DNA from: Gillisia sp. Hel_I_86
GTDB taxonomy: Bacteria; Bacteroidota; Bacteroidia; Flavobacteriales; Flavobacteriaceae
DNA length: 64,000 nucleotides
Assembly (NCBI RefSeq): GCF_007827275.1
Contig: NZ_VISE01000001.1
Location: 186,001 to 250,000 of the forward strand
Direction: 5' to 3'
Shown: positions 18,098 through 39,080 of the stretch, piece after piece
Layout: each line of letters starts with the position of its first letter
How positions within the stretch are numbered: position 1 is the first letter of the stretch
Made by a program: the position numbers and the translations under genes
The notes under the pieces: generated by a model
What the model saw: the letters and a program-made list of their open reading frames with translations, nothing else
Databases searched by the model: none
Told to the model about the DNA's origin: nothing

Positions 18098-19231
18098 CTA
18101 ATAATTTTTCAATTCAATTTTTAGCGCTTCAAATAACATCTCAAAATGCTTCTGCTCGATATTCAATGCTGGTAAAATTCGAAGCAACTTTTTGTTGGAT
18201 GCAGCCCCTGTAAAGATGTGATGGTTAAAAAGCAAGGATTTTCTAAGGGTAGCGATTTCGAAATCAAACTCCAACCCCAGCATCAATCCTCTTCCTTTCA
18301 GCTTTTTTATCTGAGGTATTTTTGCCACCTCTTGCTGCACAAAATCAAACATTTTATTTGCATTGTCCATAAGGTGTTCCTTTTCAATCACCTCCAATAC
18401 TGCAATTCCCGCAGCACAGGCCAAATGATTCCCACCAAAAGTGGTTCCCAACATTCCATGTTTTGGAGGAATTGAGCTATCTATCAAGATCCCCCCAATT
18501 GGAAAGCCATTTCCCATCCCTTTTGCAATGGAAATGATACCTGGGCGAAGCTTATGTTTTTGATATGCGAAGAAATCACCTGTTCTACCGTATCCGGCTT
18601 GTACCTCATCTGCAATTAGAACTACATTGTATTGTTCACATAAGGCTGCTGTTTTCTGATAAAACTCGGTACTTGCTTCATCCAAACCTCCCACTCCCTG
18701 AATAAATTCAATAATCACTGCAGCCGTTTCTCCCTTTTTCAATTCATTTTCGAGACCAGAAATATCTTCGAAAGCAAGTTTACATACGCTGTGTGCTTTA
18801 TTTAAAGGGGCTTTGATCCCTTGATTATCTGTTACTGCAACCGCGGCCGAAGTCCTTCCGTGAAAAGCATTTTCAAAATAGATCACCTTGCTTTTCCCTG
18901 TATGAAAAGAGGCAAGTTTTAAGGCGTTTTCGTTCGCTTCTGCCCCCGAATTGCACAAAAACAGACTATAATCTGTAATTTTTGCAGTTTTCTTTAACTT
19001 TTTGGCCAATTCTTCCTGTAAGGGATTTTTTATGGAATTAGAGTAAAAACCCAATTTCTTTAATTGACCTCCCAGCTTTTCCAAATAGTGAGGATGAGAA
19101 TGGCCTATAGAGATCACCGCATGCCCCCCATATAGATCTAAGTACTTTGTGCCTTTTTCATCAAACACGAAACAGCCTTCCCCTTTAACCGGAGTGATAT
19201 CATATAAGGGATAAACGTCGAATAGCTCCAT
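18098..19231 (-). CDS. argD: Acetylornithine/succinylornithine aminotransferase
   Basis: A class III PLP aminotransferase of 377 residues that makes acyl-ornithine from acyl-glutamate semialdehyde. The PLP lysine is in SIAKGMGNGFPIGG, and LIADEVQAGYGRTG supplies the aspartate that contacts the pyridine nitrogen. The phosphate-binding NSGAEANENALK segment is near residue 105. It lies 2 bp from proC, so the two are surely co-transcribed. Confidence 0.93.
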   Translation of the reverse strand: MELFDVYPLYDITPVKGEGCFVFDEKGTKYLDLYGGHAVISIGHSHPHYLEKLGGQLKKLGFYSNSIKNPLQEELAKKLKKTAKITDYSLFLCNSGAEANENALKLASFHTGKSKVIYFENAFHGRTSAAVAVTDNQGIKAPLNKAHSVCKLAFEDISGLENELKKGETAAVIIEFIQGVGGLDEASTEFYQKTAALCEQYNVVLIADEVQAGYGRTGDFFAYQKHKLRPGIISIAKGMGNGFPIGGILIDSSIPPKHGMLGTTFGGNHLACAAGIAVLEVIEKEHLMDNANKMFDFVQQEVAKIPQIKKLKGRGLMLGLEFDFEIATLRKSLLFNHHIFTGAASNKKLLRILPALNIEQKHFEMLFEALKIELKNY

Positions 19232-33756: not shown

Positions 33757-34386
33757 CTAAATTTTCACAATACCATTCTTTACTGCAAAAAGCACCATCC
33801 CCACCCTACTTTTTACCCGGAGTTTGGAAAACAGGCTTTCCCTATACCCATCTATGGTTTTGGGGCTTAAATTCATTTCTTCAGCAACCTCTTTATATGT
33901 TTTTTCTGAACAGGCATAGTTTAGGAATTCCATTTCGCGAGTACTAAGATCGCCATATTTCTTAGTGGCAGGATGGTCCAACACCTCTTCTATTTCCTTA
34001 CTAAAGTAATATCCACTTGTTGCAACTGATTGCAGTGCATATAAAAATTCTTCTGGCTCTATATCCTTAAGTAAATATCCTCTACACCCCAATCGCACCA
34101 TTTTAATGATGATCTCTTCATCATGTTCCATAGTAAGCGCCAAAGTCTTTTGTTCCGGGAAATGTTCTTTTAACCAAGCCATCGTGTCGATTCCATCCTT
34201 AATAGGCATTCTAATATCCAATAACAAAATATCCGGCCTTTTATGATTTGCATCAAAATAGTGTACTAGCTCTTTACCATTCTTTAGAATTGCCAATACC
34301 TCATATTCCTGAAAAGAATTTACAAGGCCTTGAAGAGATTGTGCAAACAACGTGTGATCGTCAACGATTATTATCGTTTTTTTCAT
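33757..34386 (-). CDS. NarL/LuxR-family response regulator
   Basis: A 209-residue two-component regulator. The receiver domain has D9/D10 and phosphoacceptor D57 (LLLDIRMPIKDG), and the C-terminal LuxR-type HTH begins at LSTREMEFLNYA and ends at VGMVLFAVKNG. The start at 34386 (MKKTIIIVDDH) is preferred over the frame's first ATG at 34431, because the 15 extra residues do not resemble a receiver. The gene overlaps the histidine kinase gene by 26 bp, so they form a pair. Target genes are unknown. Confidence 0.92.
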   Translation of the reverse strand: MKKTIIIVDDHTLFAQSLQGLVNSFQEYEVLAILKNGKELVHYFDANHKRPDILLLDIRMPIKDGIDTMAWLKEHFPEQKTLALTMEHDEEIIIKMVRLGCRGYLLKDIEPEEFLYALQSVATSGYYFSKEIEEVLDHPATKKYGDLSTREMEFLNYACSEKTYKEVAEEMNLSPKTIDGYRESLFSKLRVKSRVGMVLFAVKNGIVKI

Positions 34387-35167
34387 AGGGGAAAATTTTA
34401 ATTGGATAGTGTAAGGACAAAGAAGTTCCATTGCCAGGGCTAGAGTTCAAAGAGAAATCGGTATTTATAAGCGATGCTCGACTCTCCATATTTAAGAGTC
34501 CGGAGCTTTTGGTTACTTCCCTTATATTGAAGCCTACGCCATTATCTTTTATTTTTAAATGCAATTCTTCTGGCAGGTAATTTATAAAAACTTCCAATTT
34601 TGTCGCTTTGGAGTGCTTTATAGCATTGGAAAAAAATTCCTGAATAATCCTAAAAAGTATGATGGAATCCTTGACTATAATTTCAATTGCTTCACCTGTA
34701 CTGCTAAGTTCTGTTTCAAGATTATTCAGACGTTCAAACCTTAACAATTCATTTTTAATGGAAGCCTCGATTCCGCTATATCCCACAACCTCATTATTAA
34801 GGGATTTGGACAGGGATCTTACCTCCTGTAACGAATTGGAAACTACTTCTTTGATATCTTTTATAGATTGTTTTGCTGAAGCATCCACACTGCCCGATAA
34901 TATATTAAGCTGCATATTGGCCACAGAAAGTAATTGGCCTATATTATCGTGCAGTTCCCAACTAACATTTTTAAGGGTTTGTTCTTGGATTTCGATCTTG
35001 GATTGTGCCAATTCATTTTCAAATCGGGTCTCTGCCTCGAATTTTTCCAGCAGTAATTTATTTTTGCGCTTCTGAAATGTGATAAAGAAAATAATAGCAA
35101 AACTGGTCAAGAATAAAATGACCACGATAAAGTAAACAATTAATAAAAGTTCTTCCTTGGCAAGCAT
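34361..35167 (-). CDS. Sensor histidine kinase, HisKA_3 type, with minimal input region
   Basis: A 268-residue kinase with one N-terminal transmembrane helix (about residues 7-31), a coiled linker, the phosphorylated H73 (ELHDNIGQLL) of the HisKA_3 type and a HATPase domain (NGVGFNIREV, then GNGTSLSLHYP). It has no periplasmic sensor domain, so sensing must depend on the membrane segment, the linker or a partner protein. The two membrane proteins upstream are obvious candidates. It pairs with the overlapping response regulator. Confidence 0.9.
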   Translation of the reverse strand: MLAKEELLLIVYFIVVILFLTSFAIIFFITFQKRKNKLLLEKFEAETRFENELAQSKIEIQEQTLKNVSWELHDNIGQLLSVANMQLNILSGSVDASAKQSIKDIKEVVSNSLQEVRSLSKSLNNEVVGYSGIEASIKNELLRFERLNNLETELSSTGEAIEIIVKDSIILFRIIQEFFSNAIKHSKATKLEVFINYLPEELHLKIKDNGVGFNIREVTKSSGLLNMESRASLINTDFSLNSSPGNGTSLSLHYPIKIFPYEKNDNNR

Positions 35168-36341: not shown

Positions 36342-37100
36342 TTATCGTGCACTCCTATTTTTAGTTATCTCTGGAAGCTTTTTTATCTGTGCACAATATA
36401 TAAACCCAAATGAAAACATGCCATATAAAAAAATATTGCTATACCTCAAAATGGTTGAATGCATTTTAATAAAATCTATATTATCTACCGAAAAATACAC
36501 GCTGTAAATATGAATTGGTGGCACACAAAGGTGCCAAATGAGAAGGCCAACAGAAATGTAAAAAAGTAAATTATTTTTAAAATCTAAAATTTGATCACTT
36601 ATTAGCAGCTCAAAATAATAACTGGCAATAGCAATAATTAACAATAACACCCCTACAATAAGAATAGTCATATCATAAGAATAGAATAACTGATTAGAAC
36701 TTGTTAATTTAAATATTCCAAGTAGTATAAAAATAAACAAAGCAAACTTTAAAATTCTTTTATAAGTAACTCTTTCAAGCTGTTTAATAAATAAAAAACT
36801 GTAAAATGAAATGCTTATTAAATGATTCCAATTGTGTAACCAGACATTTCGTTGGAATAATGAATCTTCCAAAAAAGGAAAGGTTTTATAATCATCAAAA
36901 AACGACCATAAAGCATATAAACCACTAAGATCCAACAAAAAAACATACCATAGAAACCATGCTAAATATTTAATATCCCTCTGGACATTTGGGGTTTTAA
37001 ATAAATAATAACTCCCACTTATAGCTGCTATTAATTCAAAAATAAGACCAATATAAATTTTGTGTTCTATTATAAAATCCAGCATATTTATTTGTGGCAT
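36342..37100 (-). CDS. Seven-helix membrane protein, paralogue 2
   Basis: 252 residues with about seven transmembrane helices and little else. It is a diverged duplicate of the 35217-35942 product, with the matching SYYFELLISDQIL, FYISVGLLIW and MFSFGFIYCAQ segments near the C-terminus. The ATG at 37100 is directly adjacent to the stop of the 124-residue gene upstream, so they are transcribed together; an internal ATG at 37085 is an alternative start. No enzyme motif is seen. Together with paralogue 1 it could form a hetero-oligomeric sensor, which is inference only. Confidence 0.65.
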   Translation of the reverse strand: MPQINMLDFIIEHKIYIGLIFELIAAISGSYYLFKTPNVQRDIKYLAWFLWYVFLLDLSGLYALWSFFDDYKTFPFLEDSLFQRNVWLHNWNHLISISFYSFLFIKQLERVTYKRILKFALFIFILLGIFKLTSSNQLFYSYDMTILIVGVLLLIIAIASYYFELLISDQILDFKNNLLFYISVGLLIWHLCVPPIHIYSVYFSVDNIDFIKMHSTILRYSNIFLYGMFSFGFIYCAQIKKLPEITKNRSAR

Positions 37101-37475
37101 TTAATATTCTCCCGGGGGCCATAAACCAGTAGTTCCATTAAAGGGTTCTATCTCATCATTAGCAACATCTTCATATTCCTTATCTGGATCATCAGACTTT
37201 ACTCTTTTGGTTGGAGCTAAAAACACAGTAGCCAAACTGGGTTCTGTTTCGGTAGCATCGTAAGCACCAAACCATATATTGATTCCGGGATTATCTATCC
37301 CTTGTTGTATAGATTTCGTCTTTACCTCCTCCAAATATGTCAATAGCTCTTCTACCGTATAAAAGAACTGGCAAGTATCTTCATGTTCCCCTCCGTTGGT
37401 GGTAACAATTAATCTGGTATCCCACCATTTTTTTTGTAGCTTTTTTGCTTTCACAACTGTAATTTTTCTACCCAT
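37101..37475 (-). CDS. Small acidic protein of unknown function
   Basis: 124 residues with no signal peptide. It has a basic N-terminus (MGRKITVVKAKKLQKKWWDT), a mixed middle with one helix (TVEELLTYLEEVKTKSIQQG), a NIWFGAYDA stretch and an acidic end (SDDPDKEYEDVANDEIEPF) closing with PPGEY. One cysteine is present (HEDTC). I do not recognise the family. It is likely real: the composition is protein-like and the stop abuts the next start. It precedes the membrane protein and two-component genes in the same direction. Confidence 0.6.
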   Translation of the reverse strand: MGRKITVVKAKKLQKKWWDTRLIVTTNGGEHEDTCQFFYTVEELLTYLEEVKTKSIQQGIDNPGINIWFGAYDATETEPSLATVFLAPTKRVKSDDPDKEYEDVANDEIEPFNGTTGLWPPGEY

Positions 37476-37569
37476 TTTTTTTTAAGATTTATTAGATTTC
37501 CAATATAGAATGTTACTAAAATACTTTGTTAAAAATAGAATTTTTCTTTAACATATTCTTTCAAATCAT

Positions 37570-37593
37570 AAAAAAGGGGAAAAATCCCCCTTT
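37570..37593 (-). terminator. Terminator-like hairpin A
   Basis: On the - strand this reads aaaggggga-tttt-ccccttttt: a stem with an A/T loop and a T tail. It lies about 95 bp upstream of the 124-residue gene. The same design recurs at 37771-37793 and 38003-38025. Confidence 0.55.
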
Positions 37594-37770
37594 AGCGTAT
37601 TATAAGTTTAGAGTGACTTTAGTACTGCTAAAAGTGTTTTGGATCAAAAAAGCATTGATATGTGTTAATAATAATTGGGAAGGACAATTAATTGCTTAAA
37701 ATGCATTCTAGATGTTATTTTAATTCAGGACCTTAAGGTGCACATCTTTAGTTAAAAACAACAAAAATTA

Positions 37771-37793
37771 AAAAAAAGGGAAAAATCCCCTTG
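37771..37793 (-). terminator. Terminator-like hairpin B
   Basis: On the - strand the sequence aaggggatttttccctttt forms a short stem with a T tail. It follows the long inverted repeat at 37844-37940 by about 50 bp, in the same order as the C pair. Confidence 0.55.
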
Positions 37794-37843
37794 TAATGGG
37801 ACAGATAGTGACATATCTTTGGTTTGAAACTAATACGTAGTAG

Positions 37844-37940
37844 TTTTAAAAGAAAGAAGTGTCGTTGGATGTGTAATCTATTATTAGGTGGGGCTGATAA
37901 GAGATTGAAAACACAAAAAAACGACACTTTCTTGTTTTAA
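37844..37940. repeat. Long inverted repeat B in the non-coding region
   Basis: The left arm ttaaaagaaagaagtgtcgtt and the right arm aacgacactttcttgttttaa pair imperfectly around a centre of about 53 nt. The centre contains aggtggggct and aaaacac. The same organisation, with matching core bases, is seen at 38077-38187, so this is a repeated structured element and not a chance hairpin. No protein is encoded. Confidence 0.6.
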
Positions 37941-38002
37941 TATTTTAAACTATAATTGGAAGATATTAACTTCTAAATAGGATACAACAAATTTAATGCC
38001 GT

Positions 38003-38025
38003 AAAAAAGGGGAAAAAACCCCTTG
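38003..38025 (-). terminator. Terminator-like hairpin C
   Basis: On the - strand aaggggttttttccccttttt forms a 6-bp stem with a loop of T and a T run. It follows the long inverted repeat at 38077-38187. It is the best formed of the three copies. Confidence 0.6.
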
Positions 38026-38076
38026 TAGAAATTCTGAGCCGTATCTATTTTTGAGTATTCATTTATTTAACTTAAT

Positions 38077-38187
38077 AAGTTAAAGGTTAAAAAAAGTGTC
38101 GTTAAGAGTGAAAACTGATTTTTAGGTAGGGCTTTAAATCTTTAAAACACGATTAATTGACACTTTTTATCTTTTTAACCTTTAACT
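38077..38187. repeat. Long inverted repeat C in the non-coding region
   Basis: The arms gttaaaggttaaaaaaagtg and cactttttatctttttaacc pair over about 25 bp around a 55-nt centre holding aggtagggct and aaaacac, as in copy B. It lies between the 5' end of hairpin C and the pxpC stop. Transcription direction is unknown; the terminator-like stems favour the - strand. Confidence 0.6.
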
Positions 38188-38219
38188 AACCTTTAACTAA
38201 TCCATAAACGCTAAAATCT

Positions 38220-39080
38220 TTATTTTATTTCAAACAGTTGAAAATTAAGTGGTTCTCCCACAACTTTTTGTGCAATTATATTTATGCCATCTTCACTAAG
38301 TTGTAAAATCCTTGGATATCCTCCGGTAGTTTGGCAATCGCGCATTAAAACTATCAATTTACCAGAAGGGGTTAATTGTACAGTACCAGGGAGTACCGGC
38401 CCCGTAATAATGGGAGTTAAATTATTTTCCAAAGGTTCCTTAAGCTGAAGCGCCATCCTATTGTTATGGACATCCAAATGGAATTTCGAGTCAAAAAGCA
38501 ACTTTTTCTGAAAAATGGACAACAATCCATATTCCGGTCCTGTAAAAACTTTGATCCCACATTTCCTTAAATATTCATCGGGCACTTTAACCGCTGCATT
38601 TAAACCATGCAAGGGTCGTTCTAATCTAGAATACCTAATTATATCCCCTTTTTGCAACATCTGCTTTTGGGTAATTCCATTATACCAGCTATAACTTTCC
38701 AGTATTTTTTTTGAATTGAAACCGCCGGCAATTGCAATATATGCCCTGCAAGCATTATTTCTTTTCCCAAAAGATAATATATCCCCTTTTTCAATTGAAA
38801 GAACCTTATTGTTCAAAACAAGGCTATCATTAATTTTGGGGTTCAAATAAGCACCACATATTGCAATTTGGGTAGGTTCATAAAATTTTAATTGAGGTCC
38901 CAACTGGGTGATTTCTAAAATTGGATGAGCCTCCAAATTGGACAACATAAGGTTTGCGTTTTTTGCTGCATAAGAATCCATCGCCCCACTTTGAGGCACT
39001 CCAAATCTTCGAAAATCATGCCTGCCCAAATCTTGAATTGAAGAGTATAGTCCCGGATATAAAACTTCAATTTCACCCAT
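38220..39080 (-). CDS. pxpC: 5-oxoprolinase subunit C (biotin-dependent carboxyltransferase family)
   Basis: 286 residues of the KipA/PxpC family. PxpABC together open 5-oxoproline to glutamate with ATP. The family start (VLYPGLYSSIQDLGRHDFRRFGVPQSGAMD) and the conserved IAIAGGF and GPVLPGTVQLTPSGKLIVLMRD blocks are present. It overlaps pxpB by 8 bp. It is the last gene of the unit and is followed by the large non-coding region. Confidence 0.93.
   Translation of the reverse strand: MGEIEVLYPGLYSSIQDLGRHDFRRFGVPQSGAMDSYAAKNANLMLSNLEAHPILEITQLGPQLKFYEPTQIAICGAYLNPKINDSLVLNNKVLSIEKGDILSFGKRNNACRAYIAIAGGFNSKKILESYSWYNGITQKQMLQKGDIIRYSRLERPLHGLNAAVKVPDEYLRKCGIKVFTGPEYGLLSIFQKKLLFDSKFHLDVHNNRMALQLKEPLENNLTPIITGPVLPGTVQLTPSGKLIVLMRDCQTTGGYPRILQLSEDGINIIAQKVVGEPLNFQLFEIK

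Follow-up and report, generated by a model that had tools for sequence, protein, structure and literature searches.

A Conserved Family of Probable Tandem Small RNA Genes in Gillisia, Its Likely Operator and a Candidate Regulator

Introduction

Several described systems resemble the locus reported here, and their features are given as far as the available text of the cited papers goes. The LhrC1-5 RNAs of Listeria monocytogenes are paralogous small RNAs (sRNAs) with their own promoters, which are induced through LisR and act on genes for cell-envelope proteins (PMC5880928, PMC4132741). RsmX, RsmY and RsmZ, which are controlled by GacS/GacA and occur in several homologous copies in some species, expose loops with GGA for RsmA; the GacA site, TGTAAG-N6-CTTACA, lies upstream of the rsm sRNA genes, at -75 for rsmY and at -196 for rsmZ (PMC4950607). 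The FopS family of Bacteroides consists of multicopy paralogous sRNAs with a single-stranded 5′ seed and a terminator hairpin; they are encoded at many loci, have the RRM-1 protein RbpB as partner and were deposited in Rfam according to the authors (PMC11697453). In addition, the two-component system FimS/FimR controls fimbrial subunit genes in Porphyromonas gingivalis (PMC1974823).

Here, we analyze a stretch of 64,000 nucleotides from Gillisia sp. Hel_I_86 (contig NZ_VISE01000001.1, positions 186,001 to 250,000), referred to as the window, with an array of repeated hairpins. The array represents a real, conserved sRNA family that has so far been unnamed, for which an operator is probable and a candidate regulator can be proposed. 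Like LhrC1-5, these are homologous multicopy sRNA genes, each with a promoter-like element and putatively under two-component regulation. Unlike LhrC1-5, they have a G-rich hexaloop and a GGGG-N6-CCCC-type site and belong to a different phylum, and no sequence or structural relation to the published descriptions of LhrC was seen. With rsmX/Y/Z they share an N6-spacer palindrome upstream, homologous copies and an exposed conserved loop, and the neighboring regulator matches the UvrY/GacA model below its cut-off; in contrast to what is described for the rsm genes, the loop is GU[A/G]GGG without GGA and the palindrome is near -42. FopS is likewise a multicopy paralogous sRNA family in Bacteroidota; compared to its published description, the conserved part of the Gillisia RNAs is the loop at the apex of a long hairpin, the genes are in tandem in one cluster, and no RRM_1 protein was found in Gillisia. 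FimS/FimR provides a Bacteroidota precedent for a link between a regulator and fimbriae, although the likeness to fimbrillin in Gillisia is far below the curated cut-off, and the available text of PMC1974823 mentions no sRNA array.

No published description of the Gillisia array RNA was found in the literature searched, which lacked most subscription papers; the sequence comparison with known RNAs covered the families of Rfam 15, and Rfp18 (PMC9723704) is an example of an sRNA published from Flavobacterium. Regulatory RNAs of Flavobacteriia seem to be little charted. The RNA family is defined here by a covariance model, its operator is predicted, and candidates exist for the regulator, encoded in the same cluster, and for co-regulated lipoproteins; a whole signal-to-sRNA circuit can thus be tested in Gillisia type strains.

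Results and Discussion

Organization of the array

On the + strand of the window, opposite to pxpC and the gene for a protein of 124 residues (p124), the array contains two intact units and one decayed unit (37576-37737) of a repeated sRNA gene (Table 1). The order in the intact units is a GGGG-N6-CCCC-type palindrome, 23 bp, a TAnnTTTG -7 box and a predicted RNA of ~100-125 nt, the 3′ part of which forms a long hairpin with the hexaloop GU[A/G]GGG, followed by a U-tract. When intergenic regions were placed side by side, a fuller order was seen: usually an A-run, the palindrome (with AGGG and ACCC variants too), usually TTG, ~20 bp and TAnnTTTG, followed by a 5′ part that contained TTTTAGTTnnCTAAA and TGTTTTGGGG in many units. 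The hairpin itself has outer arms similar to AAAGUGUCG/CGACACUUU, an apical stem, the GU[A/G]GGG loop and a closing run of U.

Table 1. Features of the array and its neighborhood (positions in the window)
Feature	Position	Strand	Evidence or remark
Response regulator (Response_reg and GerE/LuxR-type HTH), candidate regulator of the units	33757..34431	-	Domain matches
Sensor histidine kinase (HisKA_3 and HATPase_c)	34361..35167	-	Pfam
p124, protein of 124 aa	37101..37475	-	ORF; without Pfam or NCBIfam match
-7-like element TATTTTTA ahead of p124	37530..37537	-	Opposite side of the unit 1 palindrome, distance 38 bp
Unit 1 (decayed), operator-like palindrome GGGG-N6-CCCC	37576..37590	+	Between unit 1 and the divergent p124 promoter-like element
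Unit 1, degenerate -7 box TGACTTTA	37614..37621	+	23-24 bp from the palindrome box, like intact units
Unit 1, decayed hairpin, loop GUAGGG lost	37644..37737	+	Weak R2 match, 19.4 bits, E 0.77
Unit 2, palindrome AGGG-N6-CCCC, centre ~-42.5	37777..37790	+	Box/-7 rule
Unit 2, -7 box TATCTTTG, inferred transcription start ~37826	37814..37821	+	TAnnTTTG as -12..-5 (PMC9723704, available text)
Predicted small RNA 2, hexaloop GUGGGG 37888-37893, U-rich 3′ end	37846..37945	+	R2 83.7 bits, fold, covariation
Unit 3, palindrome GGGG-N6-CCCC	38009..38022	+	Pattern and box/-7 rule
Unit 3, -7 box TATTTTTG, inferred transcription start ~38058	38046..38053	+	Box/-7 rule
Predicted small RNA 3, hexaloop GUAGGG 38126-38131, U-rich 3′ end, convergent with pxpC	38078..38187	+	R2 77 bits, fold
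pxpC-type carboxyltransferase subunit (Pfam CT_A_B), constant array neighbor	38220..39080	-	Pfam, synteny

The original prediction, made from the sequence of the window, had described three GGGG/CCCC stems (37570-37593, 37771-37793 and 38003-38025) and two long inverted repeats (37844-37940 and 38077-38187) that share the motifs aggt(g/a)gggct, aaaacac and gtgtcgtt. The stems and the repeats are present at these positions, and the shared motifs are correct. Compared to dinucleotide shuffles, folding of the two hairpins is far better (z -7.0 and -6.1 on the + strand, -7.6 and -4.4 on the - strand; 0/200 shuffles as good), and the signal is weaker for the GGGG/CCCC stems (z -3.2, -2.8 and -2.5, with 0, 1 and 4 of 200 shuffles as good). 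Our analysis adds that + is the better RNA strand, that a decayed hairpin follows the first stem on this strand, and that each intact unit has a -7 box. That prediction did not recognize the array as any known RNA class. In Rfam 15, no family matched in the window at the gathering threshold, and the ten matches in 37000-38600, all far below threshold, had E values of 2 or worse, i.e., chance level. A coding function of the units for peptides was rejected, with no closed ATG ORF in 17 of 39 predicted transcripts, a longest ORF of 23 codons, and variable lengths.

Genomic setting

The array is located between pxpC and p124, beyond which are genes for membrane proteins, for a histidine kinase and for a response regulator of the LuxR/NarL type; the last matches the MctR, NarL and UvrY/GacA models, in all cases below their cut-offs. 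The outline of the gene order, Nramp - pxpA - pxpB - pxpC - [array] - p124 - membrane genes - kinase - regulator - GNAT/nitrilase, is kept throughout the genus, and the number of membrane genes differs between genomes. At four loci (L073, L078, L080 and L082) the contig ends inside the cluster. Relatives of p124 were detected in all 15 other Gillisia genomes; in G010 the protein was found only at a different place (L084), and in G009 and G013 a membrane gene separates it from the array. On the far side of the box nearest to the next operon gene (mostly p124), TAnnTTT[AG] was present at a distance of 37-41 bp in 14 of 16 loci, suggesting that this box may also serve the operon.

We also considered p124 as the precursor of a short peptide and rejected this idea, as the protein is ~120 residues long and its conserved end reads WPP..Y. 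Two ORFs of 28 residues (L073 7522-7608 and L081 7197-7283, coding-strand coordinates) match the C-terminal end of p124 only; both precede further membrane-protein paralogs and look like remnants of duplicated pairs of p124 and membrane genes. In Gillisia marina CBA3202 (G003; L078 2362-3417), p124 and the next membrane gene were each represented by two overlapping tblastn pieces, with frame changes.

RNA structure and strand

Covariation was assessed in alignment A1, which contained 39 of the 40 Gillisia units (L077 3399-3491 was left out). Seventeen of 25 base pairs changed on both sides, and the covariation score was 0.274 compared to 0.138 after shuffling, with none of 500 shuffles reaching the observed value. 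When the structure was slid by 1-3 columns, the score dropped to 0.064-0.106. In A1, 82.8% of cells were paired versus 74.4% in shuffles, a figure favored by the manual derivation of the structure of the model (R2) from individual folds of the same sequences. The structure was drawn by hand because RNAalifold alone kept only five pairs in its consensus of A1, three of them with changes on both sides. The two features by which the original prediction was to be judged, base-pair covariation and conserved synteny in relatives, were both found in Gillisia.

The hexaloop was GUAGGG in 29 and GUGGGG in 8 units, i.e., one of these two forms in 37 of 39. It was closed by AG/CU in 34 units; in 3 others, GG was opposite CC or UC. 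Outside the genus, the bases flanking the loop were read from the sequence as GA and UC in G138 and G338, and a different stem closes the loop in G069. Wobble pairs indicate the strand: A1 contained 64 GU and UG cells versus 25 AC and CA cells, and the + strand folded better than the - strand in 37 of 39 units. Both the GU excess and the better folding point to + as the RNA strand.

Distribution in Gillisia and other genera

A total of 40 units were detected with model R2 in all 16 Gillisia genomes, with one to four units per genome and a single unit in two of the 16; lower-scoring matches on the opposite strand, which are near-palindromic self matches of the same units, are excluded from this count. 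All 40 are in the pxpC/sensor-kinase cluster, on the strand opposite to the kinase and regulator genes, and some species have second units between the membrane genes and the kinase. Elsewhere in Gillisia genomes, R2 gave a few weak matches (at most 36 bits, E 0.02-0.1). Eight multi-unit arrays were compared, with the window units numbered second and third. For 21 of 24 units, the nearest sequence in other species occupied the same array index, and two of the three exceptions were in L073, whose extra middle copy shifts the index. This suggests that the array is old and has been kept rather than freshly amplified.

Clear units were also present beside pxpC in four genomes of three other genera. 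pxpC itself occurred in 275 of 397 genomes of the family. Among the best 30 pxpC loci, seven had clear units (own genome, G004, G009, G069, G138, G338 and G303; 47-84 bits), two had weaker candidates (29 bits in G429, recognized by eye in G022), and no unit was accepted in 21. The units of G338 and G303 were found only by anchoring on pxpC. When R2 was run over 249 family genomes, matches were found in at least five (G069, G138, G278 with 37.5 bits, and two Gillisia), which is a lower bound since 16 candidates per genome were scored. A search for the loop pattern in 397 family genomes yielded 30 loci, and only two of them, both from Gillisia, contained units.

The units outside Gillisia differ in their surroundings. 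In G069, the unit is inverted relative to pxpC and p124. In G138, the regulator comes after the unit, and the stretch examined showed no p124 and no kinase. Between the p124 copies of G303 there is a second loop that has a box, detected by pattern only. In genus g8 (G022, G278 and G429), a GUAGGG hairpin follows pxpC, and the box, regulator, kinase and p124 are all absent at the locus. These g8 matches are only probable, because true units give self matches of up to 46 bits on the reverse strand. The joint absence of the box and of the kinase, regulator and p124 in these three genomes was counted in favor of the preferred reading of the array (see below). In genome G294 of genus g51 (L132/L170), the stretch 3′ of pxpC looks coding and, by eye, transposase-like.

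Palindrome and promoter-like element

A center at about -42.5 is common for an activator site adjacent to a promoter. In total, 44 units were examined for the distance between palindrome and -7 box (40 from Gillisia and one each from G069, G138, G338 and G303), and it was 23 bp in 41 of the 43 units in which it could be measured. The exceptions were 24 bp (L086_6260) and 17 bp (L073_5268, which has TAATGTTG at 23 as well). A second rule, applied to the 39 rows of A1, found the box in 38 and the -7 element at 23 bp in 34 and at 24 bp in 2. According to the available text of PMC9723704, TAnnTTTG occupies positions -12 to -5, which places the center of the palindrome at about -42.5. With this geometry, the stems that had been called terminator-like are better read, from their sequence context, as operators.

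The earlier claim that each hairpin is followed by a terminator on the - strand probably had the wrong orientation. On the + strand, the stem precedes the hairpin at a rigid distance from the -7 box, and a similar arrangement of stem and -7 element recurs ahead of genes of a lipoprotein family (see below). A GC stem followed by a U-tract, as in an intrinsic terminator, is present on the - strand in the GGGG/CCCC stems, and an A-run of at least 3 on the + strand ahead of the box (38 of 43 units) would also suit a terminator on the - strand. The rigid promoter spacing and the recurrence at lipoprotein promoters appear to fit an operator better than a terminator, and the unit boxes may have a secondary role as terminators on the - strand.

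With one fixed rule for palindrome and -7 box, the two intact units and a site at 18820 on the - strand (GGGATCAAAGCCCC...TAAACTTG) were the only matches in the whole window. In the own genome, bare GGGG N4-7 CCCC was not enriched (66 occurrences versus 65 for the reversed pattern). The operator-promoter pattern with one mismatch gave 8 and 9 matches versus 12 and 11 for the reversed pattern among the matches listed, a control that covers the one-mismatch pattern and does not treat exact matches separately. Being no more common than its reversed control, this pattern is not a specific genome-wide predictor. As a separate observation, GGGGTGCAATTCCCC or its complement occurred at 14 places in the own genome among the matches listed, often a few kb apart (e.g., G000:C1:850684, 1642978, 3200052 and 3440085).

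Lipoprotein genes with a similar promoter layout

Outside the cluster, the exact layout of the units was found six times among the matches listed. Three of these matches precede one orthologous lipoprotein gene (216-217 residues) in G000, G014 and G006, where the estimated start of the gene is 211, 198 and 220 bp downstream of the start of the box, respectively; the remaining three include one in G003 (L174). The lipoprotein belongs to a family with many paralogs per Gillisia genome, which occurs in one further genus among those searched. In a gathered subset of family members comprising 65 upstream regions, three of which repeat a gene, the palindrome with TAnnnTT[AG] at a set distance was present in 20 and absent in 45, compared to a single one of the 65 when the reverse strand was scanned and to 4 of 3,250 shuffles. 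Counting distinct regions, the layout was present in 19 of 62, or in 16 of 59 without the three genes that were used to find the family.

Many lipoprotein promoters have a 12-bp palindrome and a distance, measured from the center, of 31-32 instead of 30, and this palindrome and spacing suggest that a different regulator may bind them. In G022 of genus g8, the layout occurred in 2 of 8 lipoprotein regions, though the pxp locus of this genome has no kinase or regulator. At L202, L203 and L205, the gene that ends just before the palindrome seems, by eye, to close with the C-terminal HTH of a response regulator of the LuxR type, which would point to paralogous pairs of regulator and operator. As to the identity of the lipoprotein, nothing credible was found in Pfam, the NCBIfam match to Mfa1-type fimbrial subunits had E 2e-4 and 20.8 bits (cut-off 130), and the best PDB match was a pilin backbone protein with E 0.09. 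These matches give a weak indication that the family is fimbrillin-like.

Alternative explanations of the array

The reading that we consider likely is that the array consists of tandem paralogous sRNA genes on the + strand, each with its own sigma-A-type promoter, an activator site and an end at the U-tract of its own hairpin, which are activated by the regulator. Computed support comes from the covarying hairpin, the near-invariant loop, the rigid spacing, the linkage to kinase and regulator genes, and a layout common to part of the lipoprotein family. The original prediction had offered tandem small RNAs and considered a regulatory connection with the sensor genes possible, a proposal supported by the conserved synteny, the covariation and the promoter-like layout of each unit. 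Points counted against this reading include weaker R2 matches outside the cluster, such as a second one in G138 (39.7 bits), which lacks the GUAGGG loop and is located at an unrelated place. If the array were instead read on the - strand, each hairpin would be followed by a GGGG/CCCC terminator, forming a leader or attenuator, or terminator-insulators between pxpC and the p124 operon. The U-tract behind the stem on that strand (the A-run of 38/43 units), the better folding of the stems compared with most shuffles, and the occurrence of GGGG-T5-CCCC-type stems elsewhere in the genus agree with it. However, G-U pairs and energies favor the + strand, the G069 unit is inverted relative to pxpC and p124, a terminator has no evident need of the fixed distance of 23 bp to TAnnTTTG, and some palindromes at lipoprotein promoters (e.g., L202 and L203) have no T-run on either side, so that we regard the - strand reading as improbable.

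Less probable still is the view that the units function as DNA elements only, i.e., as regulator palindromes and bidirectional terminators that insulate two operons and whose transcript has no function of its own. The palindromes do resemble operators, and hairpins with T-tracts on both sides could terminate transcription on both strands; on the other hand, the near-invariant hexaloop (37/39) inside covarying stems, the strand-specific G-U pairs and the promoter-like element of each unit all indicate that the RNA is under selection. The original prediction had also named a MITE-like element, and this or another mobile palindromic repeat would account for repeated units with inverted repeats and a copy number that varies from 1 to 4. 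We consider this reading highly improbable and largely refuted. In the own genome, matches beyond the array do not exceed 31 bp and dispersed copies are lacking, the units occupy one syntenic cluster in 16/16 genomes, array positions are mostly orthologous between species (nearest relative at the same index in 21/24), and compensatory changes preserve the structure.

Possible mode of action

Under the preferred reading of regulated tandem sRNA genes, the neighboring response regulator would bind the palindrome as a dimer at about -42, a binding proposed from adjacency, fixed spacing and the shared motif. The sRNAs are probably switched on by this NarL/GacA-like regulator together with genes for surface lipoproteins. 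Transcription of the sRNAs would end at the U-tract of the hairpin, and the exposed G-rich hexaloop would then act on mRNAs or on an RNA-binding protein.

Pairing between the loop and lipoprotein leaders was not supported, as loop complements were no more common than in shuffles and energies equaled those of controls. Six-base complements of the loop were present in 3 of 25 lipoprotein leaders (one promoter being included twice) versus 3.85 expected. The L235 leader contains an 8-base complement, and at least one leader contained such a complement in 20 of 200 shuffles too. The duplex energy between loop and leader was -10.1, compared to -9.6 (sd 2.1) after shuffling and -10.4 for the reversed loop. 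Lipoprotein leaders did not differ from 26 control leaders of the window for the A-type loop (p 0.50) or the G-type loop (p 0.21; p 0.01 for the reversed control). Ten mRNAs of the cluster had no clear complement of the loop.

Regarding proteins, GGA was absent from the loop and its closing pairs in all 39 units, and none of the 16 Gillisia genomes contained an RRM_1 match with E <= 1e-5 (the search was positive in 2 of 14 control genomes, one of them Bacteroides). The candidate role of the array as a sponge for an RRM protein was rejected on the latter result. A wider model, tentative and rather unlikely, is a separately evolved Gac/Rsm-like cascade of Flavobacteriaceae, in which the kinase and the NarL/GacA-like regulator would act through one type of operator on both fimbrillin-like surface lipoproteins and tandem decoy sRNAs, whose hexaloop would titrate a putative RNA-binding protein that is not CsrA-type by motif and not RRM-type by search. 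The conserved loop could lead to a new RNA-binding protein in Bacteroidota. Partners of the Hfq and CsrA types have often been described as absent from this phylum.

Two further elements were seen in the RNAs and leaders. Pairing of the G-rich element GUGUUUUGGGG in the 5′ part of the sRNAs with lipoprotein leaders, compared to control leaders, gave p 0.06. The 5′ leaders of the lipoprotein genes are C-rich near the inferred start (e.g., GTCACCCCCA; L176, L203, L205 and L221). CCCC was present in 17 of 24 lipoprotein leaders versus 4 of 26 control leaders, and the C-rich leader is possibly a separate regulatory element.
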